From: Synechococcus sp. RS9909
Lineage (GTDB): Bacteria > Cyanobacteriota > Cyanobacteriia > PCC-6307 > Cyanobiaceae
Length of the DNA: 64,000 nt
Assembly (NCBI RefSeq): GCF_014279595.1
Contig: NZ_CP047943.1
Span: 1,054,001-1,118,000 of the forward strand
Direction: 5' to 3'
Below the pieces are notes generated by a model. The model was not told the DNA's origin. It saw only the letters and a program-made list of their open reading frames with translations, and ran no database searches. Made by a program: the position numbers and the translations under genes. This document shows positions 21,754 through 37,581 of this stretch, piece by piece (positions within the stretch are counted from its first letter, which is position 1; each line of letters starts with the position of its first letter).

Positions 21754-22269
21754 ATGAGCCGCGAGATTGATCCTTACCGGATTCCCAAGGCCCGCTGGGA
21801 GGTGGCTCCCGTTGCGGGCCTCGCTGCCATCGATATCAATGCCAATGGTGGTGCCTGGAGTGGCCGCGAGTTCATCGGTGAGTCCACCCTCGGCGGTGTC
21901 GCGGTTTACGCGATCTACCAGGCCCTGCTGACGGCACTGCGCACAGAAGCGCTGCGCAAGCGTGGCGCCATCGACCGGCAGACCCAGGTGCAGGCGATTG
22001 CCTCAAGCGTCTGGGAATCGGCCAAGCATGGTGCGGTCGTCAGCCTGGTGCTCAGCGTCGTCCTGCTGGTCTTTCCCTGGCTCGGCGTCCCCCTTGCCCT
22101 GGTTGGGTTCGTTGGTCTGGGCAAGGCCTCAGTGGATTTGCTCCATGCCTTCTGGGATGGTCTCGATGCAGAGCAACGCCAGGAGCTGCATCGCGCTGCT
22201 TTTGAGGCGGGTGTGAACCTCAAGCGGTTGCTGGCCAAAGGTGGTCCGGGTCAACAAAGGTTTGCGTGA
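21754..22269 (+). CDS. hypothetical membrane protein at the head of the DISARM region
   Basis: A 171-residue protein beginning MSREIDPYRIPKARW. One long or two short hydrophobic segments are visible (VVSLVLSVVLLVFPWLGV, PLALVGFVGLGKASV), with a Gly-rich stretch before and a helical basic tail. No family recognised. It lies about 80 bases upstream of the coiled-coil gene and in the same direction as all the DISARM genes. The 100 bases before it contain the palindrome CTCCTGCAGGAG (21662-21673) and a GTGGG/CCCAC hairpin, possible promoter elements. Confidence 0.72.
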   Translation: MSREIDPYRIPKARWEVAPVAGLAAIDINANGGAWSGREFIGESTLGGVAVYAIYQALLTALRTEALRKRGAIDRQTQVQAIASSVWESAKHGAVVSLVLSVVLLVFPWLGVPLALVGFVGLGKASVDLLHAFWDGLDAEQRQELHRAAFEAGVNLKRLLAKGGPGQQRFA

Positions 22270-22351
22270 TCTGCATCGTTCCTGATTCACCCGTCTGGGG
22301 GATGGCCCAATCCCAGCCGCTGCTGGCAAGTTGGGAGCATGGATCACAGCT

Positions 22352-22789
22352 ATGAGCAAAAGTTCTGCGCGCCGCTTCCCTGCCAACCCCCCGGATGAAG
22401 AGCTCCGGGAGACCTACGACGCGATGCGTTCGGCTTTGATCAGCGTGAACATCTCCCGCGGTATCTATCGCAGCCAGAGCGATAAGCGCGGTGTGGTGAT
22501 CGCGGAGCTGCAACGCGAACTGCAGGAACTTGAGGCCGATCTGGGCAATGAAGCCAGGGCCAAAGCCAGGCTGCATGCGATGAACAGCCGTCTGGTCACC
22601 GTGATCCGCGAACTGGAGGCCACCGGTGATGCCATCGCCGACACCGTGGAAGAAAGCGAGCAACAGAGCGGCTTCTGGCTGGTGCGGATGTTCCAGCGCC
22701 TTGTGCAATTGGCGCAGCAGTGGCGATCGGTGAAAGCCAAGGCCGCTGCCATCGCCAGGGAAGCCAACCAGATCGAACCCGAGGCCTGA
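22352..22789 (+). CDS. coiled-coil hypothetical protein
   Basis: A 145-residue, strongly helical and charged protein. The start MSKSSARRFPANPPDEEL is chosen over an in-frame TTG 21 bases upstream. The middle (VVIAELQRELQELEADLG and following) has heptad character and is probably a coiled coil. It ends three bases before the SAP/Rho-N-like gene and is in the same operon as drmD. Not part of the described DISARM core. No function can be assigned. Confidence 0.72.
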   Translation: MSKSSARRFPANPPDEELRETYDAMRSALISVNISRGIYRSQSDKRGVVIAELQRELQELEADLGNEARAKARLHAMNSRLVTVIRELEATGDAIADTVEESEQQSGFWLVRMFQRLVQLAQQWRSVKAKAAAIAREANQIEPEA

Positions 22790-22792
22790 ACG

Positions 22793-23173
22793 ATGGCATC
22801 CACCCCCTCGATCGCTGATCTTCTGGAGGCCACCAGCCGTGAGCTGGCCGGCACCGATGCCCGCGTCTACCGGCGCGTGGGCGAACACATCCAGCGCACA
22901 GAGCAAGCCATCGAGGTACTGCAGAGCCCAACACCAGAGGCACCATCCGCAGCGATGGCACTCCTGGGCCGGGGCAGCTTCCAGCAGCAGACGGTGGCCA
23001 CCCTCAAGCGGCTGTGCAAACAGCACCAGATCAAGGGCTACAGCAAGCTCAAAAAATCAGGTCTGGCGGCTGTTCTCGAGCAGCATGGCGTCGAGCCACC
23101 ACCACGGCCCCTGGAGAGCTTCAGCAAGAAGGAGCTGATCGGGTTGGTCAGGCAGTTGCTGGAGACCAACTGA
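22793..23173 (+). CDS. SAP/Rho-N-like DNA-binding protein coupled to drmD
   Basis: A 126-residue helical protein. Residues about 65-100 read TVATLKRLCKQHQIKGYSKL followed by KKSGLAAVLEQHG, the helix-extended-helix pattern of SAP/Rho-N/HeH nucleic-acid-binding domains. A second similar helix pair (SFSKKELIGLVRQLLE) closes the protein. Its TGA overlaps the drmD ATG by one base, so the two are translated in step. Close coupling to the helicase suggests an accessory that helps load DrmD on DNA; this is inference. Confidence 0.8.
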   Translation: MASTPSIADLLEATSRELAGTDARVYRRVGEHIQRTEQAIEVLQSPTPEAPSAAMALLGRGSFQQQTVATLKRLCKQHQIKGYSKLKKSGLAAVLEQHGVEPPPRPLESFSKKELIGLVRQLLETN

Positions 23174-26100
23174 TGGTGAGCACTGCTCCCAGCAAGACCC
23201 GCCTCAAACTCAAGCCCGGCTCGGTCGTCCGTTGCCGGACCCGCCGCTACCTCGTGGAAGAGGTGCAGCAGCCCGTTGAGGCCGGCGCCGACACGGTGGT
23301 GGCGATGGCCTGCATGGAAGACCAGGCGATCGGACAGCGGCTGACGGTGTTCCTTGAGCGCGAGATCGATTTCGAGGTCCTGGGTGAGAGCAGTTGGGAG
23401 GTGGTGGCCCAGAGAGGCTTCGATCAGCCCAAGCAGTTTTCGGCCTACCTCAACACCCTGCGCTGGAACTGCGTCACAGCCACTGATGCGGAGCTGTTCC
23501 AGGCCCCCTATCGGGCTGGAATCGATGTGAAGGCTTATCAGCTTGAACCGCTCCGCAAGGCGCTGCAGATGCCTCGCGTGGGGCTGTTCATCGCTGACGA
23601 CGTGGGCCTTGGCAAGACGATCGAGGCGGGCCTGATCCTGCGAGAGATGCTGTTACGACAACGCATCCGGCGGGTGGTGATCAGCTGCCCTCCTTCGGTG
23701 CTGCGGCAGTGGCAAGAAGAGATGGCGAGTCGCTTTGGCTTGGCCTTCACCGTGATGGACAGGGCCTATGTGGCCAAGGTGCGCCAGGAGCGTGGCTATG
23801 GCACAAATCCTTGGAGCACAGGGAACCGCTTCCTGATCTCCCATGCGCTGCTGCGCAACAGCGACTACGCAGCACCACTGATCGATTGGCTCGAGCAAGG
23901 GAGAGGTGCAGAAGACCAGGCCCCTCTGCAGAGCTTGTTGATCCTTGATGAGGCCCACAACGCGGCCCCTGCCAGCAACAGCCTTCGCTATGCCATTGAC
24001 TCAGGCCTGACCCGCAGCCTTCGTGATCTGGCGCCCCGCTTCGAGCATCGGATCTTCCTGAGTGCAACGCCCCACAACGGACACAGCAACAGCTTTACGG
24101 CGTTGCTGGAGTTATTGGATCCAGCGCGGTTCACCCGTGGGGTGCCGTTCGAACAGGGAGATCTGGATGCAGTCCTCGTCCGCCGCCTGAAGGACGATCT
24201 ACGCCGCATCGGCGAGGAGTTCCCGGAGCGGATCGTTGAGCCGTTGAAGAAGCCCAAGGGTTCGCTTTCAGCCGACACCCCAGAGCTGGCACTCTCCCGG
24301 TTGCTTCAGCAGTACCGCAAACAAAGGGAGCGCAGGCTGCTGGCCGAAGGGGCCACCAAGCGCCAGCTCAATGCCGACCGGCTGGTGATCACCAACCTTC
24401 AGAAGCGTCTGCTCAGCTCGATTGAAGCCTTCGCGCGCACCTTGGCCGTGCATCAGCGCACCTTGGCCGAGAAGCAACAACAGCAACGAGACGCCCAACT
24501 TGAACTGCTTCAAGGAGGGGTAGACGCAGACAGTGATCTCGCGGAACTCAACGATGACGAGGTGCTGAATCTGGAGGAAGCCCAGACCCGGGCTGCCCTG
24601 CGCCAGACCATCGCAGCCGATCAAAGCGATCAGCAACTGCTGGAGCAGATGGCCTCTATCGCCGCTGCCCAGAGAGGCAAGCCAGATCCCCGCATCGAGA
24701 TGCTGCAGGAATGGATGGGCCAACACCTCTGCTCAGGCCTTGGCACTGATGACCTGCAGTGGAAGCCCACTCGGCTGCTGATCTTCACGGACTACGTCGA
24801 TACCAAGCGCTACCTGGAACGGCAGTTGGCGGCACTGCTTGGGGAGCGGGAGGCCGAGCAACGGGTAGCCAGCTTCAGCGGCGGGATGAGCGAGGAGAAC
24901 CGCGAACGGCTGAAGGCTCAGTTCAACGCCGACCCTGATCAAGAGCCGTTGCGGATCCTGATCGCCACCGATGCTGCCCGGGAGGGGGTGAACCTGCAGA
25001 ACCACTGCAAGCACCTGATCCACTTCGATATCCCCTGGAACCCCAGCAAGTTGGAGCAGCGCAACGGCCGTATCGACCGCAAGCTGCAGCAGGCCCCGCA
25101 GGTGTGGTGTCACTACTTCCTGCTGGAAGACCGCCCGGAAGATCGGGTGATGGACGTGCTGGTGAAAAAGACGGAAGTGATCCGACAGGAGTTGGGATCC
25201 CTCTCTCCACTGGTGCAGCGCCAGGTTGATGAGGCCTTCGAGGCGGGGATCGATCTGGACAACCTCGACGACTTGCAGGGGCAACTCGAGGGAATGGATT
25301 CAGCCACCACCGATCGGGGCGTGCTGCTCACCAAAGCTCGAGAAGAACTGGAAGCCAGCCGTCGTGTGGCTGAACTCGAGCAGCAACAAGACGCTCTCCG
25401 GCAACTGCTGTCGAAGTCAAAACAGTGGCTGGCCTTTGCTCACGACCGCTTCCGTCAGGCGCTCAACTGCTCCCTGGATCTGCTGGGTGTGTCAGGGCTG
25501 GAACAACACACCGACGAGCGTGGGCAAACCTGCTGGCGCCTGGCCAACCCAGAGGAGTTGCCCGCTCAGACACGTGACAAAAGCTGGGAAAACACCCTCG
25601 ACAGCCTGCGGGGCGTGAAACCCGCCAAGGCCTATCTCGATGAATGGCGCCGGGAGAATCCAGTACGGCCTGTGATCTTCTCGGACCCCGGACGGCTGAG
25701 TGCGGAGTCGGTGCATCTGCATCTGGAGCACCGCCTGGCCCAACGCCTACTCAGTCGTTTCCTCAGCCAAGGCTTTCTGCACCACGAACTGAGCCGAGCC
25801 TGCGTTCTGCCCAGCCGTGATCCCCAGCCCAAGGTGGTGGTGCTTGGGCGCCTGTCGTTGTTCGGTCAAGGTGCTGCCCGATTGCATGACGAGCTGATCA
25901 CGGTGGTGGCCGATTGGCATCCAGGCGATGACCGGCAGAGCGCGCTGCAGCCACTGCCAGCAGCCACGAAAGAGACCACGTGGAAACTGCTTCAAGACGC
26001 CTTGAAGGAGGCCGAGAGCGGTGGTCTCCCCAACGTTGACACCAGTCGCTTCCAGGCCATGGCCGAACACGACGTGCAGGCTCTGTTGCCCCTGCTCAAG

Positions 26101-26514
26101 CAGGAGTCGGAGACCGCATTGGCTGACGCAGCAGAGCTGCTGAAGCAGCGGGGTGGATCGGAGGCTCAGGCCCTCAAGGATGTGCTCCGCGGCCAGCGCA
26201 AACGCATCAATTCCACCCTGCGTCAACGCACCAGAGAGCTCGGGAAGCTGGAGAAAAAGGCGGCTGATGCGGAGCCAACGGGCCTGATTCCCGGCCTTGC
26301 TGATCAGGTGGATGTGCCAGCGCTCGATCTCTCCAAGTTGTCCAAGAAAGAGCACGCCCAACTGCGATCCGATCAACGGCACTGGGAGCGCAGGCTGGAA
26401 ACAATCGAAGCTGAACTCGGCAGTGAGCCGCAGCGGATTGTGGAGAGCTACCGAGTGGTGACCCACCGGTTGGAGCCGGCCGGGCTTGTGTACCTCTGGC
26501 CGATCAGCGGATAG
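23173..26514 (+). CDS. drmD: DISARM SNF2-like helicase DrmD
   Basis: An 1113-residue SNF2/DEAH ATPase, the signature helicase of class 1 DISARM. Motifs: DDVGLGKTIEAGLIL (Walker A, about residue 142), LLILDEAHN (Walker B, about 258), LSATPHNGHSNS (motif III, about 296), IFTDYVDTKRYL and ATDAAREGVNLQNHCKHLIH (about 598), then EQRNGRIDR (motif VI). A long helical C-terminal part follows. The ATG at 23173 overlaps the preceding stop. The methylase gene starts two bases after its stop. All ATPase residues are intact. Confidence 0.93.
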   Translation: MVSTAPSKTRLKLKPGSVVRCRTRRYLVEEVQQPVEAGADTVVAMACMEDQAIGQRLTVFLEREIDFEVLGESSWEVVAQRGFDQPKQFSAYLNTLRWNCVTATDAELFQAPYRAGIDVKAYQLEPLRKALQMPRVGLFIADDVGLGKTIEAGLILREMLLRQRIRRVVISCPPSVLRQWQEEMASRFGLAFTVMDRAYVAKVRQERGYGTNPWSTGNRFLISHALLRNSDYAAPLIDWLEQGRGAEDQAPLQSLLILDEAHNAAPASNSLRYAIDSGLTRSLRDLAPRFEHRIFLSATPHNGHSNSFTALLELLDPARFTRGVPFEQGDLDAVLVRRLKDDLRRIGEEFPERIVEPLKKPKGSLSADTPELALSRLLQQYRKQRERRLLAEGATKRQLNADRLVITNLQKRLLSSIEAFARTLAVHQRTLAEKQQQQRDAQLELLQGGVDADSDLAELNDDEVLNLEEAQTRAALRQTIAADQSDQQLLEQMASIAAAQRGKPDPRIEMLQEWMGQHLCSGLGTDDLQWKPTRLLIFTDYVDTKRYLERQLAALLGEREAEQRVASFSGGMSEENRERLKAQFNADPDQEPLRILIATDAAREGVNLQNHCKHLIHFDIPWNPSKLEQRNGRIDRKLQQAPQVWCHYFLLEDRPEDRVMDVLVKKTEVIRQELGSLSPLVQRQVDEAFEAGIDLDNLDDLQGQLEGMDSATTDRGVLLTKAREELEASRRVAELEQQQDALRQLLSKSKQWLAFAHDRFRQALNCSLDLLGVSGLEQHTDERGQTCWRLANPEELPAQTRDKSWENTLDSLRGVKPAKAYLDEWRRENPVRPVIFSDPGRLSAESVHLHLEHRLAQRLLSRFLSQGFLHHELSRACVLPSRDPQPKVVVLGRLSLFGQGAARLHDELITVVADWHPGDDRQSALQPLPAATKETTWKLLQDALKEAESGGLPNVDTSRFQAMAEHDVQALLPLLKQESETALADAAELLKQRGGSEAQALKDVLRGQRKRINSTLRQRTRELGKLEKKAADAEPTGLIPGLADQVDVPALDLSKLSKKEHAQLRSDQRHWERRLETIEAELGSEPQRIVESYRVVTHRLEPAGLVYLWPISG

Positions 26515-26516
26515 CC

Positions 26517-29500
26517 ATGGCACGACGTTCTCCTGCGATGGATCCTGAGCTCAAGGCGCATCAGGAGTGGCTCGGCTACCTGCAGCCCGTTGGCTTGGTG
26601 GTGGCGCCCGCGGCCATGCAAGAGGCCGGCTGGGTGGTGACCCGCAGCGGCATTGAGTTGATCGAACGGCAAGCGCGCTACCGGGCTGCCCTTGAGCCAC
26701 TGGATGACACATCTGATCCAGACGACAGCGACACAGAGCACGGCTTTCGATCCCTGCTGGATCTGCTCACCGAACACCTGGGTTGGGATAGCGATCAACT
26801 GGACCGGAGCCCCGAGGCCATCCAGGCTCACACCAAAGAGCTGCCTGAGCTGGGCGACACACTGACGCCGACTGCAGTGGTTCCTGCTGCCTCCGGTGAG
26901 GGGGCCCAGCTGCTTGTGGTGGAGTTGCCGCTGGCTGCAGCCTTCGATCAGAAGACCACCGATGGCGAGCACCTCTGGCGCGCTAGCGCCTCGGAGCGGC
27001 TGGAGCGGCTGCTGCGTGAAACCGGCGTGGAGGCGGGCCTGCTGTTCAACGGCAGCCAGCTGCGCTTGGTGGTGGCCCCGAAGGGAGAGAGTTCGGGCTA
27101 TCTCACCTTCCGGCTGAGCGAACTGGCTGAAGTGAGCGGCCGGTTGATGCTTTCGGGCCTCGATCTGCTCTTGGGCCAGAGCCATGTGTTCCTCGATCCC
27201 GATGGCTACCGGCTCAGCGACGTGCTCAAGAAGAGCCGCAGTTTCCAGGCCGTGGTCAGTAATGCCCTGGCTGATCAGGTGTTGGCTGCGTTGTGGGATC
27301 TGCTGCGGGGATTTCAGCAGGCCGATGAGCTGAGCAAACAGCAAGACAACCAACTACTGGGAGATCTACCCGAGCGGGATCCCCAACAGCTCTATGGCGG
27401 CTTGATCACCATGCTGATGCGGCTGGTGTTCCTGCTCTACGCCGAAGACGAAGCGCTGATGCCCTGCGATGCGGTGTATGAGCAGAACTACAAACTCAGC
27501 GCGATCTTCGAGCAGCTGCAGCAAGACGAAAGCGAATATCCCGACACGATGGAGCAGCGCTTCGGTGCCTGGGCGGGGCTGATGAGTCTTTGCCGCTTGG
27601 TGTTCGACGGTGGCGGCCCAACAGTCGACTACCTGCCAGCGCGCCACGGACAGCTGTTCGATCCTGATGTCTACCCCTGGCTGGAATCGCCTTGGATCAG
27701 CGATCGGGTGGTGCTGGCGGTTCTTCGCAATCTGCTGATCGTGCAGGGCGAGCGGATCAGCTACCGGGCCCTGGATGTGGAGCAGATCGGCTCGGTCTAC
27801 GAAGGGATCATGGGCTACGCGGTTCAGCGCATCCCAGGCCGTTGCATTGGCTTGAAGAGCAAACCGCAAGGTGCCAAGAAGCAGATCACGACAGCCGTTG
27901 ATCTCGATGCGCTGCTGGAGTTGCCGGGGGCGAAACGCAAGAAGTGGCTGGAAGATGAAGCCGGCACAACCCTGCCGACCAAAGCTGCAACCGCTCTGAA
28001 GGCTGCCGACTCAGAAGATACGTTGGTTGAAGCCTTGGCGCCACGGATCAATCGAGACCTCTTCGATGGGCCGCAGGCAGCCGGAAGCCTGGTGTTCCAA
28101 CCCACCGAAGAACGTCGCCGCAGCGGTAGCCACTACACGCCGCGTTCACTCACAAGACCGATCGTTGAGGAGGCTCTACGCCCGTGGATGGAACGCTGCG
28201 AGTACAGGCCAAAAGCCTCCCAGATCCTTGACCTGAAGATCTGCGACCCAGCGATGGGTTCAGGGGCTTTCCTTGTGGAGAGCTGCCGCTACCTGGCAGA
28301 ACTCTTGGAGCAGGCTTGGAGCCGTGAAGGCTTACCAGACGCCCTCAAGCCGGGTGGTCATGCCCTCGGCGAAGAACCCCTGATCTATGCCCGCCGATTG
28401 ATTGCGCAGAGCTGCCTCTATGGGGTGGACAAAAACCCCTTCGCGGTGAACCTGGCACGCCTCAGTCTCTGGCTGGTGAGCCTCAGTAAAGATGCTCCTT
28501 TCACCTTCGTGGATCATGCCTTGAAGTGCGGTGATTCCTTAGTCGGGATGGAGCGCACCGAAATCGAAGCAGCACTCAAGGGCGCAAGCCTTCAGCGCGA
28601 ACTCCAGATTAACTACATCGAGGAGGTGAAGCAACAGGAGGCGAAGAGCTTTGCGCTGTTCCATGCCGACAGCCGCAGCGATGCTGACGATGAACAGAAG
28701 CGCAAGGCACTCGAAGAGTGGAATGCCAGCACGGCCTATCTGCGAACCGTTGGCGATCTCTTGGTGGCGGCATTCTTCAACGGCAAGAAGCCGAAGGATC
28801 GTGAAGAGCTGAAGACGATCTATCTAGAAGCCACGCTGAAACACAACACAGCGGAAGAACTGGAAGACGAACTGGCGGAACCGCTGGAGCGGCTGCGGGA
28901 GGGCGAGAAGGGCCTTCAGCCGCTGCACTGGCAGCTGGCCTTCCCGGATGTATTCGGCCGGCCAGAGCCGGGCTTCGATGTGTTCGTGGGCAATCCACCC
29001 TTCGCTGGCAAGAACACCATCGCCGAAGGCAGCCCCGAGGGGATCCTCGACTGGCTCAAGCAGCTGCACCCCGAGAGCCACGGCAATGCCGATCTGGTGG
29101 CCCACTTCTTCCGCCGCTGCTTCCACTTGCTCCGGCCCGGTGGCTCGCTGGGGCTGATTGCCACGAACACCATCGCCCAGGGCGACACCAGGAGTACTGG
29201 CTTGCGCTGGATCTGCCTGAACGGCGGCACGATCTATGCGGCGCGCAAGCGCTACAAGTGGCCCGGTGTGGCATCGGTGGTGGTGAGCGTGGTGCACCTG
29301 TTCAAGGGCGTCTACGCGGGCGCAAAACTGCTTGATCGGCGAGCGGTAAAGAAAATCACGGCATTTCTGTTCGCCAACGGCGGCCACGAGGATCCGAAGC
29401 AGCTAGCGGCCAACTCTGGCAAGAGCTTCCAGGGCTCGATCGTGCTGGGCATGGGCTTCACCTTCGATGATTCAGGCCCGGCCGACGACGACACCCCAGG

Positions 29501-30677
29501 CATACCCTCGCCGATTGCCACGATGCAGCGGCTGATCGCAGCGAATCCGAAGAACGCCGAGGTGATCTTCCCCTACATCGGCGGGGAAGAGGTGAACAGC
29601 AGCCCTACCCACGCTCATCACCGCTATGTGATCAATTTCGGGGAGAGGAGCGAGGAAGAGTGCAGGAAAGAGTGGCCGGAATTGATGCAGATTGTGGAGC
29701 GGAAGGTGAAGCCAGGAAGGCTGGCCCAGAACCGCGAGATCCGCTCGCGCTACTGGTGGCGCTTCGGGGAGACATGCCCAGCTCTGTATTCGGCGATTGC
29801 GGGGTGTGAGCGGGTGCTGGTGATCCCCTGCATCAGCAACACCCTGGCGTTTGCCTCGTTGCATCCGTCAGTTGTTTTCTCCCACAAGCTGATTGTTTTC
29901 CCATTACGAGAGGCTTCGGCTTTGGCTCTGGTGCAATCACGAATTCATGAGTTCTGGGCTCGTTCGTTTGCCTCATCCATGAAAGATGACCTGAACTACT
30001 CACCCACCGACTGCTTCGAGACCTTTCCCTTCCCCGTTGCCCTGCTCGATTCCACCGCCAGCAATCACATTCATATCGGGATCCATCAGTCCCTCGAAGC
30101 CATCGGCGAGCACTACCAACGATTCCGCGCCGGGTTGATGCTGAGCAACAACGAAGGCCTCACCAGCACCTACAACCGCTTCCACGATCCCTCCGAAACG
30201 AGCAACGAGCTTCTGGAGCTGCGACGTATCCACAGCGAGATGGATCAGGCGGTGCTGGCCGCCTACGGCTGGAAGGATGTGCCTACCACCTGCGGCTTCG
30301 GGCTCGACTACCTCGAAACCGAAGACGACGCCCAGCTCCCCGACGATCTGCAGGAACGCATCGACAGCGGCGACCTGTTCTTCTGGGACGCCGGTGAAGC
30401 CATGGCCTTTGAGTTGCAGCTGCGCTCCTGCGAAGCCATCAAGGGCAGGAAGAAACTGCCCTGGCGCTACCGCTGGCCCGATGCCGTCCGCGATGACGTA
30501 CTCGCCCGCCTGCTGGCCCTGAACGCCGAGCGCTACGCCGAAGAGGTGGCCCAAGGGCTGCATGGCAAGGGAGGGAAGAAGCAATCCACAGCCGCTCCTG
30601 CTGGCGGCAAACGCCGGGGCCGGCCTGTCAAGGCAGCCGACTCGGCCGATACTGAGCAAATCGGACTGGCGCTATGA
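26517..30677 (+). CDS. drmMI: DISARM N6-adenine DNA methylase DrmMI
   Basis: A 1386-residue protein that should methylate adenine to mark host DNA as self. The SAM-binding motif ICDPAMGSGAFLVESCRYLA is near residue 575 and the catalytic VFVGNPPFAGK (NPPF) near residue 824. The N-terminal 500 residues resemble the nuclease-like/helical part of type IIG-style enzymes (YGGLITMLMRLVFLLYAEDE, DVEQIGSVYEG). The C-terminus after residue about 1000 should hold target recognition (RSRYWWRFGE, YSPTDCFETFPFP). The frame is unbroken. Its last four bases overlap mntA (ATGA). The recognised sequence cannot be predicted by eye. Confidence 0.92.
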   Translation: MARRSPAMDPELKAHQEWLGYLQPVGLVVAPAAMQEAGWVVTRSGIELIERQARYRAALEPLDDTSDPDDSDTEHGFRSLLDLLTEHLGWDSDQLDRSPEAIQAHTKELPELGDTLTPTAVVPAASGEGAQLLVVELPLAAAFDQKTTDGEHLWRASASERLERLLRETGVEAGLLFNGSQLRLVVAPKGESSGYLTFRLSELAEVSGRLMLSGLDLLLGQSHVFLDPDGYRLSDVLKKSRSFQAVVSNALADQVLAALWDLLRGFQQADELSKQQDNQLLGDLPERDPQQLYGGLITMLMRLVFLLYAEDEALMPCDAVYEQNYKLSAIFEQLQQDESEYPDTMEQRFGAWAGLMSLCRLVFDGGGPTVDYLPARHGQLFDPDVYPWLESPWISDRVVLAVLRNLLIVQGERISYRALDVEQIGSVYEGIMGYAVQRIPGRCIGLKSKPQGAKKQITTAVDLDALLELPGAKRKKWLEDEAGTTLPTKAATALKAADSEDTLVEALAPRINRDLFDGPQAAGSLVFQPTEERRRSGSHYTPRSLTRPIVEEALRPWMERCEYRPKASQILDLKICDPAMGSGAFLVESCRYLAELLEQAWSREGLPDALKPGGHALGEEPLIYARRLIAQSCLYGVDKNPFAVNLARLSLWLVSLSKDAPFTFVDHALKCGDSLVGMERTEIEAALKGASLQRELQINYIEEVKQQEAKSFALFHADSRSDADDEQKRKALEEWNASTAYLRTVGDLLVAAFFNGKKPKDREELKTIYLEATLKHNTAEELEDELAEPLERLREGEKGLQPLHWQLAFPDVFGRPEPGFDVFVGNPPFAGKNTIAEGSPEGILDWLKQLHPESHGNADLVAHFFRRCFHLLRPGGSLGLIATNTIAQGDTRSTGLRWICLNGGTIYAARKRYKWPGVASVVVSVVHLFKGVYAGAKLLDRRAVKKITAFLFANGGHEDPKQLAANSGKSFQGSIVLGMGFTFDDSGPADDDTPGIPSPIATMQRLIAANPKNAEVIFPYIGGEEVNSSPTHAHHRYVINFGERSEEECRKEWPELMQIVERKVKPGRLAQNREIRSRYWWRFGETCPALYSAIAGCERVLVIPCISNTLAFASLHPSVVFSHKLIVFPLREASALALVQSRIHEFWARSFASSMKDDLNYSPTDCFETFPFPVALLDSTASNHIHIGIHQSLEAIGEHYQRFRAGLMLSNNEGLTSTYNRFHDPSETSNELLELRRIHSEMDQAVLAAYGWKDVPTTCGFGLDYLETEDDAQLPDDLQERIDSGDLFFWDAGEAMAFELQLRSCEAIKGRKKLPWRYRWPDAVRDDVLARLLALNAERYAEEVAQGLHGKGGKKQSTAAPAGGKRRGRPVKAADSADTEQIGLAL

Positions 30678-30985
30678 GCCTCGCCCTAGCCCAACCCCAG
30701 CTCGACACCATCGCCGACGCCTGTCGGCGCCATCACGTGGCGCGGCTGGATGCGTTCGGTTCCGTGCTGAGGCCTGATTACAGGCCTGGAGAGAGCGATA
30801 TCGATCTGCTGGTGGAGTTCCAGCCCCTCGACCCCGCCACTCTCTACAAGGCCTACTTCGCGCTGCTGAATGAGCTGCGCATTGGTCTGGCCTCTCGTGT
30901 CGACCTGGTCATGGCCGATGCCGTCCGCAACCCCTATGTCAAACAGACCATCGAGGCGAGCAGGCAACAGATCTATGCAGCGTGA
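30674..30985 (+). CDS. mntA: MntA nucleotidyltransferase antitoxin
   Basis: A 103-residue minimal nucleotidyltransferase. The GS...DxD catalytic signature is complete (DAFGSVLRPDYRPGESDIDL), followed by the third acid in SRVDLVMADA. Proteins of this type transfer AMP to a tyrosine of the partner HEPN toxin and thereby silence it. The start overlaps drmMI by four bases and its end overlaps hepT by eleven, so it is embedded in the DISARM operon. Nothing in the sequence suggests decay. Confidence 0.92.
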   Translation: MSLALAQPQLDTIADACRRHHVARLDAFGSVLRPDYRPGESDIDLLVEFQPLDPATLYKAYFALLNELRIGLASRVDLVMADAVRNPYVKQTIEASRQQIYAA

Positions 30986-31331
30986 CCCCCGGGCCTATCT
31001 GAGCGATATCCTGGAGGCGGCAGCTGCCATTCAGGACGCAACCAGAATGATTGGCGAAGCTGACTACAGCCAGTCGAGGCTGATTCGCTCGGCCGTAGAG
31101 CGTGAGTTCATCATCATCGGGGAAGCCCTGAAGGTGATCGCACAGCGAGATCCACAACTCTTTGCTGTGATCCCAGAAGCGAGGCAAATCATTGATTTCC
31201 GAAATCTGCTCACCCACGAGTACATGAATGTCAGTGATCCAGTGGTCTGGGGTGCGATCCAAACAGATCTGCCGGTTCTGATCGAGCACTGCACACAGCT
31301 GCTTAACCAGTTCGAAGAGGGGCAGAGCTGA
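30975..31331 (+). CDS. hepT: HepT HEPN-family RNase toxin
   Basis: A 118-residue all-helical HEPN protein (DUF86). The RX4HXY catalytic motif is present as R76-N-L-L-T-H81-E-Y83, within IIDFRNLLTHEYMNV. Tyr83 is the residue that MntA-type antitoxins AMPylate. The chosen ATG at 30975 lies inside the mntA 3' end; a longer upstream frame is only mntA read out of frame. drmA starts three bases after the stop. HepT toxins cleave tRNA or mRNA when freed from MntA. Confidence 0.92.
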   Translation: MQRDPRAYLSDILEAAAAIQDATRMIGEADYSQSRLIRSAVEREFIIIGEALKVIAQRDPQLFAVIPEARQIIDFRNLLTHEYMNVSDPVVWGAIQTDLPVLIEHCTQLLNQFEEGQS

Positions 31332-31334
31332 CCC

Positions 31335-34300
31335 ATGGCCACCTCCGCTGAGATCCGCCAACAGCTCGTCGCCGCCCTGCGCAGTGATCTGATCGGCCCC
31401 GGCTGGGACAACAAAGCTCGCCGGCATGAACAGCTCAGCCAGCCCCCATCGGTTTGGTACACAACCGGCTTCCTGGTTCCTCATGTCTTCCAGCAGGAGG
31501 CGGATCGAACTGGCAATGAGGGCCAGTCGAGTTATGCCGATCTGGCTGGAGAAGACGAGAGCAACGACGCCGCCAATCGGCTGGAGAAGAAAGAGCGCGA
31601 CGAAGACGCCAACGACTCTCTCGATCAGGGCAACAAGCGCCGGTCCTGGTTCCCGTCATCGCTGGGAATGAGCTTCATCCTCGAGCGGGGAAGCACTCTC
31701 GAGGCAACAGTCACCTGGGGCGATTACAACCCACCGGCTGATGGCGACGACCCAAAGCTCTGGCTTCGCTCTCCGCAGAAGGCCGAGCAGACTTTCACCA
31801 TCTCGGGGCCAGGTACGAGCCCCGACATTCCCTTAGAAGGCAACCCAGAAGGGCTTTGCCTTCGTTGGATTGCCAGGCAAGCCCCGAAGAAACTCGGTTA
31901 CCCCAGCGACCAACTGTCGGTTTCGTTGTTTCTGCTCAATAAGCGCAAGCCGCCTGAGAGCAATCAGATTCGCCACCGCGATCCACACACGGCTTTTCAG
32001 GCTGAGCTGAGCGTGCAATGCCGAGAAGGCTTTCCGCCGCGTCGGGATGCTCTGCAGAACGCCACCAACCAAGACAACGACGAAGCCCTCGCTGCTCTCC
32101 AGTACCGGCGTGACTTCTGCTTCGCCAGCGGTCACAACGTGGCGGTGAACGCTGAAGGAATTGCTGAGGAGCGACCTGATCGCGCCTTCACACTCACCAG
32201 CACCTGGTTGCCCACCGCTGAGGTGATGCGGGTTCTGCCTGAACCGCCTGCAGAGGCACGCAACGTGCCGATGGGCATGGAAGCCCTTGCCGATCTCGCG
32301 CAAAGCGAGCAGGTGATCGATCGGCTGCTGCCGATGGTGAAGGCCTATCGCGGCTGGATCAGCCAACAACCCAAGCATCCAGTCAGCGACAAGGATCAGA
32401 ACGACACTGCCAAGCAGCTCCGAGCCCAAGCAGAAGACTGCGCCAAGCGCATTGAGAACGGCATCCAGTTACTGAGTGATCCGCTCGTGCGAGAAGCCTT
32501 CCGCACCATGAATGTGGTGATGGCCAAAGCTCAGCGGCAGCGCTCAGCCTTCACCGCCAAGGTCGCCCCTGACCAGATCGGTATCGCTGAGGGAACCCGC
32601 ACTCCGGGTTGGCGTTTCTTCCAGCTGGCCTTCGTGCTGATGAATTTGCCGGGCCTAGCCCAGCCCCTCACAGATCAAGGAAAGATCGACCGGGAGACCG
32701 TTGAACTGCTCTTCTTCCCCACTGGGGGTGGCAAGACTGAGGCCTACCTGGGCTTGGCGGCATTCACCTTGGTGTATCGCCGACTAGCCCATCCCGGCAT
32801 CGAGTCGGCCGGCGTCACGGTGTTGATGCGCTACACCCTGCGTCTGCTCACGCTGGATCAGCTCGGCCGCGCTGCCACCTTGATCTGCGCCTTGGAGTTG
32901 GAGCGTCAGGAACGCGCCAAGGCTGGAGATCGCTACTTGCTGGGTGAGTGGCCTTTCGAAATCGGCATGTGGGTGGGTAAGGCCGCCACGCCCAACAAGC
33001 TCGGTGGATCAGGCGATAGCGATCAGAACTCCACCCACGCGCTGCTCACCAAGTGGAAATCGGGCAAACGCGACCGGCCGATTCCGATCGAAACCTGCCC
33101 TTGGTGCAATCGCCCGTTAGCCCATGAAGGATTCCTTCTTCTGCCTCCCAAGAAGCCGGATCGCTTGGAGATCTATTGCCGCGAACCCCGTCTTCCCGAG
33201 TCCAAGCAGGAACACGCCCACATGGGTCCTTGCCCGTTCAACCGCTCCATACCGCTTCCAGTGTTGGCGGTGGATGAGCAGATCTATCGCCGTCTGCCCT
33301 GCTTCTTGATCTCCACGATCGACAAGTTCGCTGCACTGCCCTGGGTCGGGAAGACCTCGTCCCTCTTCGGCAATGTCAGTCACTACCAGCTGCCAACCGG
33401 TGCAGGTGTCGCTGGCTTCTGGGGCCCCGCTGAAAAGCCCAGCGGCCTCAAGATCCCCCACGGCCGTCTTCTGCCTCCGGAGCTGGTGATCCAGGACGAA
33501 CTCCACCTGATCAGCGGCCCACTGGGAACCCTCGCCGGTCTCTACGAGACGGTGATCGAGCGGTTGATGCGACCAACGCCAGAGTCGCCCCCACCCAAGA
33601 TCGTCGCCTCCACTGCAACCGTGCGGCGGGCAGAGGCGCAGATTCGGGCCCTGTTTGGCCGCTCACAAGCGCGGGTGTTCCCGCCTCCTGGGCCTGAACG
33701 AGAAGACAACTTCTTCTCGCGGACTGTCGACGATCCCAACCAGGCGCGCCTCTATGTGGGGCTCTCAGCTGCAGGCCGCAACCTCAAGGGTGTTCTGCTG
33801 CGCAGCTATCTCGGCTTGATGGCAGCAGCCCAAAAGGCCTGGGATGACAACAAGGCCATGGGCGAGAAGAACCCAGCGGATCCCTACATGACCTTGCTCG
33901 GATACTTCTCCAACCTCAAGGAACTGGGGGTCACCCGCAGCATCCTGGAAGACGAACTCGGCGCTCAGCTCGAAGAGTTCGCCAACAACCGAGCCATTGA
34001 GGGAGTCGATAACCCCTTCGCCAAGCGGCGGCGCCCGGAGATGCCCGAGGAACTGACCTCACGGGTGAACACCGCCAAGATCAGCGAAACCAAGGACCGC
34101 CTCTCCAAGCCCTACGTCGACAAGCAAAAGCTGGATGTGGCCTTGGCCACAAACATGATCTCGGTGGGTCTAGACATCGCTCGGTTGGGCCTGATGGTGG
34201 TGCTCAACCAGCCCAAGACCGCTGCTGAGTACATCCAGGCCACCAGCCGCGTGGGACGACAGCTCAGCGACAACCCTGATACCAACAAGCCAGGGCTGGT

Positions 34301-34874
34301 GTTGGTGCTGTTAAACCCCAACCGTCCCCGGGATCGCTCCCACTTCGAGCTCTTTCCCTACTGGCACCAAACCTTCTACCGGCATGTGGAGGCGACGAGC
34401 TGCACACCCTTCGCTAGCCGGGCCATCGATCGGGGGCTTCCTGGTGTGGTGGTCGCGATGGCACGGCACAGCGAAGCGCAACTCGCCCCCCCGTCGGGAG
34501 CCATGTCGGCCGACGCCTTGCAACGAATCAAAGGGGAAATTGCTGAGGTCTTGCAGAACCGCTGCATGGCAACGGGAGCCGCCGATGCTGATCACAGCCA
34601 ACTGCTGCCAACAGAAGTACGTCAGCAGGTGATGGACCTGATGGAGGCCTGGTGGAAGCTGACCCAACAACCGGAAGCCAAGCTCCAGTACTGGACCCAT
34701 GAGGAGAAGGGCTCGGGAGCGGGGCTACTGCACACCCCGCTCGATACGGATGTCCTCTACGCCAGTGATGGCTACAAGCAGTTCTCCACCAACTGGAGCC
34801 TGCGTGATGTGGAGCCCACCGTGCCGATTCGCTTGGTGAACTACCGCGATGAGATCACCGCAGACGACGAGTGA
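31335..34874 (+). CDS. drmA: DISARM helicase DrmA
   Basis: An 1179-residue helicase-like protein. LLFFPTGGGKTEAYLGLAAF is the Walker A motif (about residue 461), VIQDELHLISGPLG the Walker B (about 720), VASTATVRRAEAQIRAL motif III, and ATNMISVGLDIARLGLMVVL with YIQATSRVGRQ (about 969) the C-terminal helicase motifs. A possible zinc site lies at TCPWCNRPL. The N-terminal 400 residues are specific to DrmA. It is followed after eight bases by drmB, with which it forms the DISARM core complex. Intact. Confidence 0.92.
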   Translation: MATSAEIRQQLVAALRSDLIGPGWDNKARRHEQLSQPPSVWYTTGFLVPHVFQQEADRTGNEGQSSYADLAGEDESNDAANRLEKKERDEDANDSLDQGNKRRSWFPSSLGMSFILERGSTLEATVTWGDYNPPADGDDPKLWLRSPQKAEQTFTISGPGTSPDIPLEGNPEGLCLRWIARQAPKKLGYPSDQLSVSLFLLNKRKPPESNQIRHRDPHTAFQAELSVQCREGFPPRRDALQNATNQDNDEALAALQYRRDFCFASGHNVAVNAEGIAEERPDRAFTLTSTWLPTAEVMRVLPEPPAEARNVPMGMEALADLAQSEQVIDRLLPMVKAYRGWISQQPKHPVSDKDQNDTAKQLRAQAEDCAKRIENGIQLLSDPLVREAFRTMNVVMAKAQRQRSAFTAKVAPDQIGIAEGTRTPGWRFFQLAFVLMNLPGLAQPLTDQGKIDRETVELLFFPTGGGKTEAYLGLAAFTLVYRRLAHPGIESAGVTVLMRYTLRLLTLDQLGRAATLICALELERQERAKAGDRYLLGEWPFEIGMWVGKAATPNKLGGSGDSDQNSTHALLTKWKSGKRDRPIPIETCPWCNRPLAHEGFLLLPPKKPDRLEIYCREPRLPESKQEHAHMGPCPFNRSIPLPVLAVDEQIYRRLPCFLISTIDKFAALPWVGKTSSLFGNVSHYQLPTGAGVAGFWGPAEKPSGLKIPHGRLLPPELVIQDELHLISGPLGTLAGLYETVIERLMRPTPESPPPKIVASTATVRRAEAQIRALFGRSQARVFPPPGPEREDNFFSRTVDDPNQARLYVGLSAAGRNLKGVLLRSYLGLMAAAQKAWDDNKAMGEKNPADPYMTLLGYFSNLKELGVTRSILEDELGAQLEEFANNRAIEGVDNPFAKRRRPEMPEELTSRVNTAKISETKDRLSKPYVDKQKLDVALATNMISVGLDIARLGLMVVLNQPKTAAEYIQATSRVGRQLSDNPDTNKPGLVLVLLNPNRPRDRSHFELFPYWHQTFYRHVEATSCTPFASRAIDRGLPGVVVAMARHSEAQLAPPSGAMSADALQRIKGEIAEVLQNRCMATGAADADHSQLLPTEVRQQVMDLMEAWWKLTQQPEAKLQYWTHEEKGSGAGLLHTPLDTDVLYASDGYKQFSTNWSLRDVEPTVPIRLVNYRDEITADDE

Positions 34875-34882
34875 GCTGAACC

Positions 34883-36793
34883 ATGCCCGCTAGCAACCGC
34901 CGCAAACAAGCTCCACCTCCCTTGGGGGAAGCCCGCCAGAGCCAAGTGCTGCAGATGTATGGCCCTGGGGCCATGGTCGATCTCCCCGACTATGCGGTGC
35001 TGATCGGTGGCCTCGATTTTTGGAACGATCGCGGCTGTGATCCGATCCACGAACCACGCCTGCTGCGCCTGGCACAACAGGCCACGGGTGCTGCTCGCGT
35101 GGAGCTGCGCACGCCACCGAAAGAGATCGATCCGCTGAAGAACATCAGTGGCTCAATCAAGGCGTTGCGCTTCCCGGAATGGTCGGTGGTGCAGAAAAAG
35201 ATCCCTGATCGCCAGGCCTTCGGGGTGAACTGCAGAGCCCGTCTGTTGGTGCACTACAACGACGGCTGCATCAAGGATTGGAAGAAGTATCAAGACCAAG
35301 ACGGCGAACACCCCCTGGTGCCCGTGCGTTTCGTGATGGCATGCCCCCATGGCCACCTCAGCGACATTCGCTGGCGCGACTTCTGCTTCCGCCAGTTCGG
35401 CTGCAAGAACACCGAACGCCTTTATCTGCTGGAAGCTGGCACCGGAAACGACTTCACCCAGATTTTTGTGCAGTCGGAGAGCGGGGTGACCCGCAAGTTG
35501 GCTGACGCCTTGATCCAGGAGATGAACCCGCTGGGTGAATGCAAGGGCCACACCCCTTGGTTGGGTCGCTTCAGCCGTGATGACGAGAAATGCCAGACGG
35601 ATGGCAAGCCCACCCCAAGCAGGCTCTTGGTTCGTTCAGCGACGAACGCCTACTTCAGCGAGACGATCTCGGTGATCTCTCTGCCAGAAGAGGCAGGTGG
35701 ATTGGCCAAGCGGGTCACTGAAATGAAGGATGACCTTGAGGCGATCGAGTCAGAAGCAGAAATTCCGATGGCTCTGAAGTTCAACCCAAGGTTGAAGAGT
35801 GTCTTCGAAGGAGTTGAGCCTGCAGCCTTGTGGAAAGCGATTGAGGCACAGCGGGGAGGCCCAACAGGTGAGGTTCCGCAACCCAAGGACGAGGAACTGC
35901 GGCTTCTGGTGGGTCCGATGGAAGGGGTCTCCAGCTCTGCAGAGGACAGTCACTTTGATGCTGCGATCTGGACCCCGGACTATTCACCACAGTGGTTCCA
36001 GAAGGCGATCAAACGCGTTCTGCTCGTCAGGCGCCTTCGAGAAGTCCAGGCCTTGGTGGGTTTCACCCGTTTCACGGCTCGCACGAGCAGCCTTGGCGGA
36101 CTCCCAATCGACACCAGCAGGAGCAACGCGCGTGCTCCTCTAGCGAATGATCTGCGCTGGCTTCCCGCTTCAGAAAACAAGGGGGAGGGAATCTTCATCG
36201 AGTTCGATCCCGCCACAATCAAGGCATGGGCGTCCAGTGATGCTGTGATGAGCCGCGCTGCTCAGTTCAGCAAGGCTTTTGAGAACGAATGGCTCAAGTC
36301 GCGGGGGCTCGACACTGATCAGTTCCCGTTCCCAGGAGCGCCGTACATCTTTCTCCACAGCCTCAGCCATCTGCTGATCACCGAAATGGCCTTGGAGTGC
36401 GGCTATGGCTCCAGCTCAATCAGAGAAAGGATCTACGCCAACTCCGAGATCGGTTACGGCATTCTCTTGCTCACGAGCTCATCGGGCTCTGAAGGCACGC
36501 TGGGTGGCCTGGTTGATGCGGGCAAGCGGATCGTTCCTTACCTGGAACGGGCCTTCGAGCGAGGTCAGCTCTGCAGCAACGACCCCTTCTGCTCTGAGCA
36601 TGATCCCAACCACGAATTCGATATCCGCCCAACCCATGGCGCTGCTTGTCATGGCTGTGAGTTGATCGCTGAAACCTCCTGCGAGCAACGCAACGAGTTC
36701 CTCGACCGGGCCCTCGTCAGCCGGACCGTTTCGGTGGTTGATGACGCCGATGACCCGAGCTTCTGGAGCTACATCAACCCTGAGGCCCACTGA
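34883..36793 (+). CDS. drmB: DISARM DUF1998 protein DrmB
   Basis: A 636-residue protein whose C-terminal third is the DUF1998 domain that defines DrmB (APYIFLHSLSHLLITEMALE, YGILLLTSSSGSEGTLGGLV). Near the end, conserved cysteines and histidines (LCSNDPFCSEHDP, HGAACHGCELIAETSC) probably bind zinc. The N-terminus starts MPASNRRKQAPPPLGEARQS then QVLQMYGPGAMVDLPDYAV. It partners DrmA and overlaps drmC by one stop/start base (TGATG). Confidence 0.92.
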   Translation: MPASNRRKQAPPPLGEARQSQVLQMYGPGAMVDLPDYAVLIGGLDFWNDRGCDPIHEPRLLRLAQQATGAARVELRTPPKEIDPLKNISGSIKALRFPEWSVVQKKIPDRQAFGVNCRARLLVHYNDGCIKDWKKYQDQDGEHPLVPVRFVMACPHGHLSDIRWRDFCFRQFGCKNTERLYLLEAGTGNDFTQIFVQSESGVTRKLADALIQEMNPLGECKGHTPWLGRFSRDDEKCQTDGKPTPSRLLVRSATNAYFSETISVISLPEEAGGLAKRVTEMKDDLEAIESEAEIPMALKFNPRLKSVFEGVEPAALWKAIEAQRGGPTGEVPQPKDEELRLLVGPMEGVSSSAEDSHFDAAIWTPDYSPQWFQKAIKRVLLVRRLREVQALVGFTRFTARTSSLGGLPIDTSRSNARAPLANDLRWLPASENKGEGIFIEFDPATIKAWASSDAVMSRAAQFSKAFENEWLKSRGLDTDQFPFPGAPYIFLHSLSHLLITEMALECGYGSSSIRERIYANSEIGYGILLLTSSSGSEGTLGGLVDAGKRIVPYLERAFERGQLCSNDPFCSEHDPNHEFDIRPTHGAACHGCELIAETSCEQRNEFLDRALVSRTVSVVDDADDPSFWSYINPEAH

Positions 36794-37581
36794 TGACACT
36801 CACCCTCCCAGGGCAGACCTTGCGAGGAGTAGCGGCAAAGTTGCGGCAGCTCAGTTATGTGCCCACCAGTTGGCAGGGCGTTCTGGCAGGGCTCAATGCC
36901 GATGGCCGCAGCCAGTTAGAGACTTTCTTGCATGACCTCGTGCGCGAGGGCGGGTCCCCGCAGTTGATGGCAATGGTGCTTGAGCACTTGGCTTATCAGC
37001 GGGAGGCCTTGCAGCGGGAGCGCGATGCCTGGAGCTTTGTGTGGTCGGGGCCTGAGCCTGCCCATGCAAAGACAGCTGACACTTTCGCCACCGTGGATCA
37101 GCTCATCCAAGAGGCACAGACCAGCCTCTTGATCGCGACATACAACATCGGTCTCTCCAATCAGTTTCAGGAGCTTTTGGAGTCAATCGCGGACCGGCTG
37201 CTAAGCGGAAGGCTTCAACGGGTGGAGTTGTTCTTTCATCCGATCCAGATCGCGGATCAACTGGGATCGGAGCCGCTGCGCATGATTCGGCAGTGGTTCG
37301 ACAAGGAGGTGTGGCCCTGGCCGGCCAAGCCACTTGTGTATGTCGATCAAAGGCTTTCTTCATCCAGCGCTGAGCGCTGTTATCAGCACGCCAAGGTTGT
37401 GGTCGCCGATGCCGACACAGACCGATCAAGCGCCCTTGTCACCAGTGCCAACTTCAGCGAGACGGCGCAGCGCCATAACTTCGAAGCCGGTTGGCTCGTT
37501 CGGCAGCCCTGGCGCGCTGATCAGGTCGCCAAGCATTTTCAGCAGATGGTGGAGGAAGGATTGTTTGCGGAGGTGCCTTGA
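36793..37581 (+). CDS. drmC: DISARM phospholipase-D-like protein DrmC
   Basis: A 262-residue PLD-superfamily protein with one HKD motif, HAKVVVADADTDRSSALVTS followed by ANFSE (His, Lys, Asp and the Ser/Asn of the active site). An N-terminal helical part precedes it. DrmC is the last and least essential component of DISARM, presumed to be a nuclease or nucleic-acid-binding subunit acting as a dimer. It ends the operon; the 177 bases after it are AT-rich and contain no gene or clear terminator. Confidence 0.9.
   Translation: MTLTLPGQTLRGVAAKLRQLSYVPTSWQGVLAGLNADGRSQLETFLHDLVREGGSPQLMAMVLEHLAYQREALQRERDAWSFVWSGPEPAHAKTADTFATVDQLIQEAQTSLLIATYNIGLSNQFQELLESIADRLLSGRLQRVELFFHPIQIADQLGSEPLRMIRQWFDKEVWPWPAKPLVYVDQRLSSSSAERCYQHAKVVVADADTDRSSALVTSANFSETAQRHNFEAGWLVRQPWRADQVAKHFQQMVEEGLFAEVP

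Follow-up and report, generated by a model that had tools for sequence, protein, structure and literature searches.

A predicted SAP-type and coiled-coil protein pair leads DISARM and unrelated defence operons in picocyanobacteria

To our knowledge, the parts that mechanistically unrelated defences have in common are regulators described in Proteobacteria, namely BrxR and RptR. The BrxR/CapW proteins are WYL-domain regulators that lead diverse unrelated phage defence systems irrespective of the partner, and they are described as wHTH + WYL repressors found mostly in Proteobacteria (PMC9122601). The RMS-proximal repressor RptR is described in Gammaproteobacteria as a 79-aa homodimer that binds a TAGCTA palindrome and is encoded by a single gene (PMC12255303). 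Here, we analyzed 64,000 nucleotides of Synechococcus sp. RS9909 (hereafter the window; the genome is a single contig of 2.6 Mb), in which two small genes, o2 and o3, precede a DISARM operon. Like BrxR/CapW, this pair heads unrelated defence systems and is partner-agnostic, but neither o2 nor o3 had a wHTH/WYL (BrxR/CapW) match in PADLOC, Pfam or NCBIfam. RptR and o3 are likewise both small DNA-binding proteins, predicted as such in the case of o3, that head type I restriction-modification (R-M) operons, and in both settings TA genes are embedded in the same operon; the consulted section on RptR, however, names neither a pair nor a SAP domain (PMC12255303). The partner-agnostic leader of defence operons is a kind already known from BrxR and RptR, while the proteins, their coupling and their fusions appear new to us. 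A search of the CC-licensed PMC literature, with subscription papers outside its scope, gave no description of the o2-o3 pair, and queries on SAP-type genes beside defence systems and on cyanobacterial defence genes or pairs gave no match to it in the same literature. A SAP/coiled-coil pair leading DISARM, type I R-M, Ssp and other systems in abundant picocyanobacteria would be another such shared part, and perhaps a physical cofactor.

All features of the window given here are on the forward (+) strand. The 171-aa membrane protein o1 (21754-22269) is followed, after a gap of 82 bp, by the 145-aa coiled-coil protein o2 (22352-22789 from its ATG; an alternative TTG start at 22331 gives 152 aa). 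A leader of approximate extent (22312-22351), partly common to the nearest relatives, lies immediately 5' of o2. Three base pairs (22790-22792) separate o2 from the 126-aa SAP/Rho_N-like protein o3 (22793-23173), and the A at 23173 is common to the o3 stop codon TGA (23171-23173) and the ATG of drmD, the first gene of the partner operon (23173-26514; PADLOC DrmD, 1037.6 bits). Downstream, PADLOC and Pfam gave the order drmMI (26517-30677; PADLOC DrmMI, 1312.8 bits), an MNT/HEPN-type pair, drmA (31335-34874; PADLOC), drmB (34883-36793; PADLOC and Pfam MZB) and the PLD nuclease gene drmC (36793-37581; PADLOC and Pfam PLDc_2). All five DISARM proteins were called by PADLOC, with best E-values of 3.1e-67 to 0, and the operon, with drmD and drmMI together with drmA, drmB and drmC, is a class 2 DISARM. 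The MNT/HEPN-type pair is wedged between drmMI and drmA at 30674-31331, and it is absent from the close cassette of a congener (G120). An earlier sequence-only reading of this DNA had described three same-strand genes with tight junctions ahead of drmD, and its coordinates, order, strand and spacing were all confirmed. A promoter or terminator separating drmD from the trio was also named there as an observation that would speak against their connection; neither a consensus promoter nor a forward terminator-like site was found in this interval, in a scan based on the sigma-70 consensus that is not informative for cyanobacterial promoters.

The AF2 model of o2 contained a helix at residues 15-102 and a second one at 109-140 (mean pLDDT 70.5), which is consistent with the coiled coil that had been proposed for it, and residues W124 and K128 were invariant in both alignments. 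When the o2 profile was run against PDB sequences, no match was obtained at E 0.1. The o3 model showed N-terminal helices at 7-19 and 23-44, where the conserved motif D22-A23-R24 (DAR) is found, then helices at 68-77 and 88-97 (pLDDT about 85) in a C-terminal SAP/Rho_N-like domain at about 65-97, and a last helix at 112-125 beyond it. Both models were middling overall, with pLDDT of about 71 and pTM of 0.37-0.38, and Foldseek with the o3 model gave no match under E 0.9. A 20-sequence o3 profile nonetheless reached the SAP domain of Ku70 (PDB 1jjr, E=3.4e-6). The protein thus combines a helix-extended-helix arrangement with a profile match to a known SAP domain, in agreement with the SAP/Rho_N-type fold that had been claimed, though the score against Pfam Rho_N was 20.0 bits, below the cut-off of 24.9, and PF02037 SAP was not among the matches. 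Ku70 is a eukaryotic DNA-end-binding subunit; its likeness to o3 concerns the C-terminus, and o3 differs from it in its distinct N-terminal region and in being partnered by a coiled-coil protein.

A profile search placed o2 directly upstream of 49 of 49 SAP-type o3 frames examined, a count that includes the broken pair of L063 and one pair of a second class (L003), and leaves out the broken pair of L064, which had no profile match. The two genes overlap by 4 bp in 17 loci and by 17 bp in 10. A gap of 3-4 bp lies between them in the window, L034, L035 and L071, and with the starts chosen this gap is 28 bp in L067 and 58 bp in L068. Judged from gene order and spacing, o2-o3 is a real coupled pair and not a product of chance. 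A search for o3 relatives at E<=0.01 in 200 genomes of the Synechococcus/Cyanobium/Prochlorococcus order gave matches in 59, some of them weak or, as with the RpoC2 protein described below, of another kind; the named records (22 loci) belong to Synechococcus, Cyanobium, Vulcanococcus, Prochlorococcus, one Microcystis elabens strain and cyanobacterial MAGs. The window o2 was 88% identical to the o2 of L035, 57-62% identical to the largest other clade and 20-31% identical to the rest. A phage or plasmid origin of o3 was rejected: IMG/VR gave 20 pattern matches, of which 0 were confirmed (alignment A1), and relatives were absent from 50,697 phage records and 72,556 plasmid records (E 1e-3).

The genes found after o3 on its strand were labelled with PADLOC/Pfam on representatives and then by blastp to these representatives, and they proved diverse. 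A DrmD fragment follows in L034 and a DrmD-like helicase with a IIG methylase in L035. Type I R-M genes take the form of GmrSD-HsdR-HsdM-HsdS (L036, L043, L044, L046 and L052), of HsdR first (L040, L045 and L129; broken in L049), or of HsdM first (L039, L041, L048, L073, L122 and the second pair of L128; a fragment in L037). SspABCD follows in L056. An MkoA-like helicase, with AAA_11/12 and RNase_H_2 domains, is preceded by an HD protein in L054 and L062 and by a PDC-S48 exonuclease plus a second pair in L057, and it occurs with methylases and no such preceding gene in L142; DUF499/HmaC accompanies it in L057 and L062. The remaining arrangements are an HKD+Snf2 helicase with a IIG methylase (L050) and an N6/N4 methylase with HNH/ResIII (L058).

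A defence gene on the same strand was located within 5 kb downstream of 32 of the 45 pairs with enough sequence, 30 of them by script and two by hand (L037, with an HsdM fragment 90 bp downstream, and L058, with the methylase 1117 bp downstream), and the figure was 29/45 when loci labelled only by a fused protein (L068, L070 and L071) were dropped. The same labels were found within 5 kb upstream on the same strand in 0/38, a control that is not fully symmetric, as the labels were drawn from genes downstream of these loci (plus window genes). At a limit of 200 bp the window's own drmD was missed, because an upstream GTG lengthens its frame, and the window was counted at 5 kb via DrmMI. Moreover, 15/36 pairs were followed on their own strand, at up to 8 kb, by Pfam N6_Mtase, an independent family, against 0.14 expected (102 places in 105.8 Mb), the genome sizes being rounded, the 36 genomes having been chosen for holding o3 relatives, and the pairs being related by descent and so not 36 independent events. 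At 3 kb the count was 3/36, and the control with o1 gave 1/22, the single case being the window itself. This test left out the strong pairs of G008, G053 and G076, whose genomes are not among the 36, as well as the second fragment of the broken G149:C45 pair. By sequence comparison, these neighbourhoods show that in most loci the pair stands shortly ahead of unrelated defence systems that modify or translocate DNA. We give a probability of about 0.9 to the reading of o2-o3 as a module that is associated with defence and not tied to DISARM; most likely, it is a system-agnostic DNA-binding accessory, acting either as a tether or loader or as a BrxR/RptR-like regulator. The pair could also serve as a marker for defence operons, several of those it leads being weakly or partly labelled (L067-L071 and L057).

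In a tree of 39 joined o2+o3 rows (built without L045, L049, L058, L063-L065, L069, L073 and L122), the two DISARM pairs fell in separate starred groups. The 12 partner states on 28 labelled rows needed 13 changes, against a minimum of 11 and a shuffled mean of 20, suggesting that lineages tend to keep their partner but were re-paired. A different kind of association was seen in L067, L068, L070 and L071, where a second o2 domain is fused N-terminally to a protein of 854-1096 aa after o3 (E 1e-24 to 4e-28), whose frame, taken from the first start codon, overlaps the o3 end by 4-11 bp. Behind the fused protein, L067 has an HsdM-like gene and L070 a C5 methylase. Such fusions often mark physical partnership. 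The L070 protein is weakly DruF2-like (40.7 bits), and this family, consisting of the o2 domain and a C-terminal part, could form the centre of a defence system not yet described.

A SAP-type protein and a coiled-coil partner packed against a DNA-modifying or DNA-translocating enzyme fit a DNA tether or loader, and this is the mechanism that we tentatively prefer, at somewhat less than even odds. In such a mechanism, o3 would bind DNA via its SAP-like domain, and o2 would multimerise as a coiled coil and bind o3; together they would form a scaffold on DNA, holding or loading the enzyme of the operon, and translational coupling would co-produce o2-o3 with that enzyme. The protein o3 may have the role of DNA loader suggested for it earlier. 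One pair lineage goes with HsdM, HsdR, GmrSD and HKD-Snf2 as first genes, and so wide a range of first genes within one lineage argues against a specific protein-protein dock. A broader version of the tether, in which the SAP and coiled-coil scaffold is a universal plug-in with one docking logic for unrelated DNA-modifying immune systems, seems to us rather unlikely. If it were true, picocyanobacterial defences would be exchangeable cassettes placed behind one shared front end that provides the tether to DNA, and the operons with an o2 dock fused to the next large protein would represent the plug-in in miniature.

Alternatively, by analogy with BrxR/CapW and RptR, the pair could be their cyanobacterial counterpart, in which o3, with o2, would bind the o2 leader and repress or delay the defence operon. 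The pair stands first in the operon and is as indifferent to its partner as BrxR and RptR are, and o3 weakly matches PHROG 390, an Arc-like repressor (E=7.5e-5). A paralogous pair, longer than the one under study, is found in the same genome about 127 kb away (L002/L003). The sequence just ahead of o2 is also conserved, as a leader of about 40-60 bp: across 15 loci of one clade, mean pairwise identity was 0.60-0.61 in the 40 bp upstream of o2, 0.47 in the next 20 bp and 0.28-0.30 beyond -80, and five near relatives showed an ungapped pairwise identity of 0.50-0.59 over -60..0 vs 0.31-0.42 further out. However, SAP domains are not known as typical readers of operators, BrxR and RptR each consist of one protein where two are found here, the fusion of the o2 domain to large operon proteins would be odd for a regulator, and inspection of the o2 leaders by eye revealed no clear operator repeat. 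We therefore regard regulation as a serious contender with the odds against it.

The pair could also be a passenger, or a separate defence or addiction module that rides islands and has no function in the partner system. No recognised defence gene was found within 5 kb downstream of 13/45 pairs, and some of these are intact and reside in small genomes (L066 and L145). In addition, a second, longer pair class (L003, L116-L121 and L123), in which o2 has about 200 aa and more, showed neither a labelled defence gene downstream nor a conserved defence neighbour recognised among the shared frames, some of these loci lying on short contigs. This explanation is nevertheless improbable in view of the labels downstream of most pairs and upstream of none, the tight junction, in many loci, between the o3 end and the first enzyme gene, and the fusions of the o2 domain to a large protein.

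The link to DISARM was assessed from both sides. DrmD relatives (E<=1e-100) were found in 25/200 genomes, at 31 places; 30 of these loci were fetched, of which 27 include no less than 1.1 kb of sequence before drmD, three being too short. Some of the 27 are DrmD fragments, and remoter DrmD-like helicases, such as that of L035, fall below the E limit and outside the 27. The operon led by the pair in the window is of the class 2 type (PMC9142583); o2-o3 was upstream of drmD in 2/27 loci, the window and G078, and absent in 25/27; in L153 and L167, weak o3-like or o2-like frames lie upstream of drmD on the other strand. The DISARM operon of G120 matched that of the window with DNA identities of 89.5% over 23205-29713, 77% over 29932-30571 and 91.3% over 31331-37565, but the match begins inside the drmD start with neither an o2 nor an o3 frame ahead of it, and the MNT/HEPN stretch is missing. 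Among the 49 pairs, two precede an intact DrmD-DrmMI start (the window and L055, where o3 overlaps drmD by 4 bp) and two precede a DrmD fragment or DrmD-like helicase (L034 and L035). DISARM operons hence occur with and without the pair; it is neither associated with most of those in the group nor rare away from them, most partnered pairs leading other systems. The sequence-only reading had taken the trio for new DISARM accessories, with o2 as scaffold, o3 as loader and o1 as sensor, and despite the packing with drmD, repeated in L055, and the few loci described below where o1 lies near DISARM (G120), beside a DrmC-like frame (L179) or, as a similar frame, ahead of the pair (L068), a DISARM-specific function is refuted as a general statement by the drmD-locus and pair counts and by the two long, highly similar pieces of the pairless G120 cassette, and is therefore extremely improbable. 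The survey of drmD neighbourhoods that the same reading had recommended thus did not show a conserved trio, and homologues of the pair were mostly away from DISARM, the outcome it had named as contrary to its proposal.

As for o1, which we judged to lie outside the module, its strongest hydrophobic stretch was 2.55 on the Kyte-Doolittle scale, and none of the protein libraries searched (Pfam, NCBIfam and PHROG) gave a family name above cut-off. Its relatives were found in 56/200 genomes of the order, mostly at one place each and most with 52-72% identity (92% in G100). In 21 genomes, an o1 relative occurs together with a strong o3 (E<=1e-18), and among these, with a weak match in G012 set aside, o1 adjoins the pair only in the genome of the window, the next nearest spacing being about 23 kb, in G100. 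The G012 match (E 0.0098) is a 311-aa hydrophobic frame at L068:10919-11854 (-), 505 bp upstream of the L068 pair, and is one hint that o1-like membrane proteins could accompany the pair. Strongly hydrophobic same-strand frames were present within 1 kb upstream at 11 of the scanned o2 genes, window included, at no common distance. L057, where a hydrophobic frame lies 56 bp upstream of its pair, likewise points towards such an association. When 16 o1 loci were inspected, two had no o1 gene call and the rest had no neighbour common to all. Small groups do share neighbours: L180, L182 and L189 have several in common, an SNase stands before o1 in L181 as it does in the window, and the o1 of L179 has a DrmC-like frame beside it. 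In G120, o1 is about 1.4 kb from drmD, in opposite orientation and without o2-o3, so that DISARM may be taken up at a site next to o1. Membership of o1 in the module was rejected, as nearly all its relatives are away from the pair and have no common neighbour. Of the trio proposed as a unit, the pairing of o2 with o3 was thus upheld, and the grouping of o1 with them was not; nor did the idea of o1 as a membrane sensor of DISARM survive, since most of the genomes with an o1 gene have it unlinked, with L068 and G120 as exceptions.

Distant o2-like genes were found sporadically in other cyanobacterial orders, in 8 genomes of the same class outside the family. A small gene starts no more than 54 bp after the distant o2-like gene in 6/7 loci, and, by reading and unscored, it resembles the N-terminus of o3 and has another C-terminus. 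These distant loci (L104-L111), which are outside the pair counts, had no labelled defence gene within 9 kb downstream. In picocyanobacteria, the distant-type pairs of L114 and L057 end 4 bp ahead of an MkoA-like helicase frame, whole or partial, behind which come genes of type I R-M or DUF499, and L113 and L115, of the same type, had no labelled gene downstream. The defence pairs may have been recruited from an older cyanobacterial gene pair.

Some loci hold two pairs. L128:9546-16203 (Synechococcus sp. WH 5701) contains two same-strand SAP-type pairs about 5 kb apart, the second of which leads the HsdM-first operon, and L057:6147-10428 contains two different pairs in tandem, of the SAP type and then of the non-SAP type, ahead of the MkoA-like helicase and the DUF499 ATPase; an exonuclease-domain protein and a protein that looks hydrophobic by eye separate them. 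An RmuC gene (PF02646) was found at L060:6810-8249, and the same blast cluster (F21) is also present in L053, L056 and L073, so that RmuC or a gene of its cluster lies near four o2-o3 loci, possibly at an insertion hotspot. SAP-like sequence of the o3 kind was also observed in a protein named RpoC2 by sequence reading. In genus g21, RpoC2 is an open frame of 2046-2636 aa in 9/10 genomes (G195, G114, G192, G196, G199, G529, G530, G532 and G533), the tenth being without a match, and outside g21 it has 1307-1406 aa in 13/14 genomes with a match and 965 aa in one. The RpoC2 of G195 (L072:2776-10188) carries four o3-like SAP repeats.
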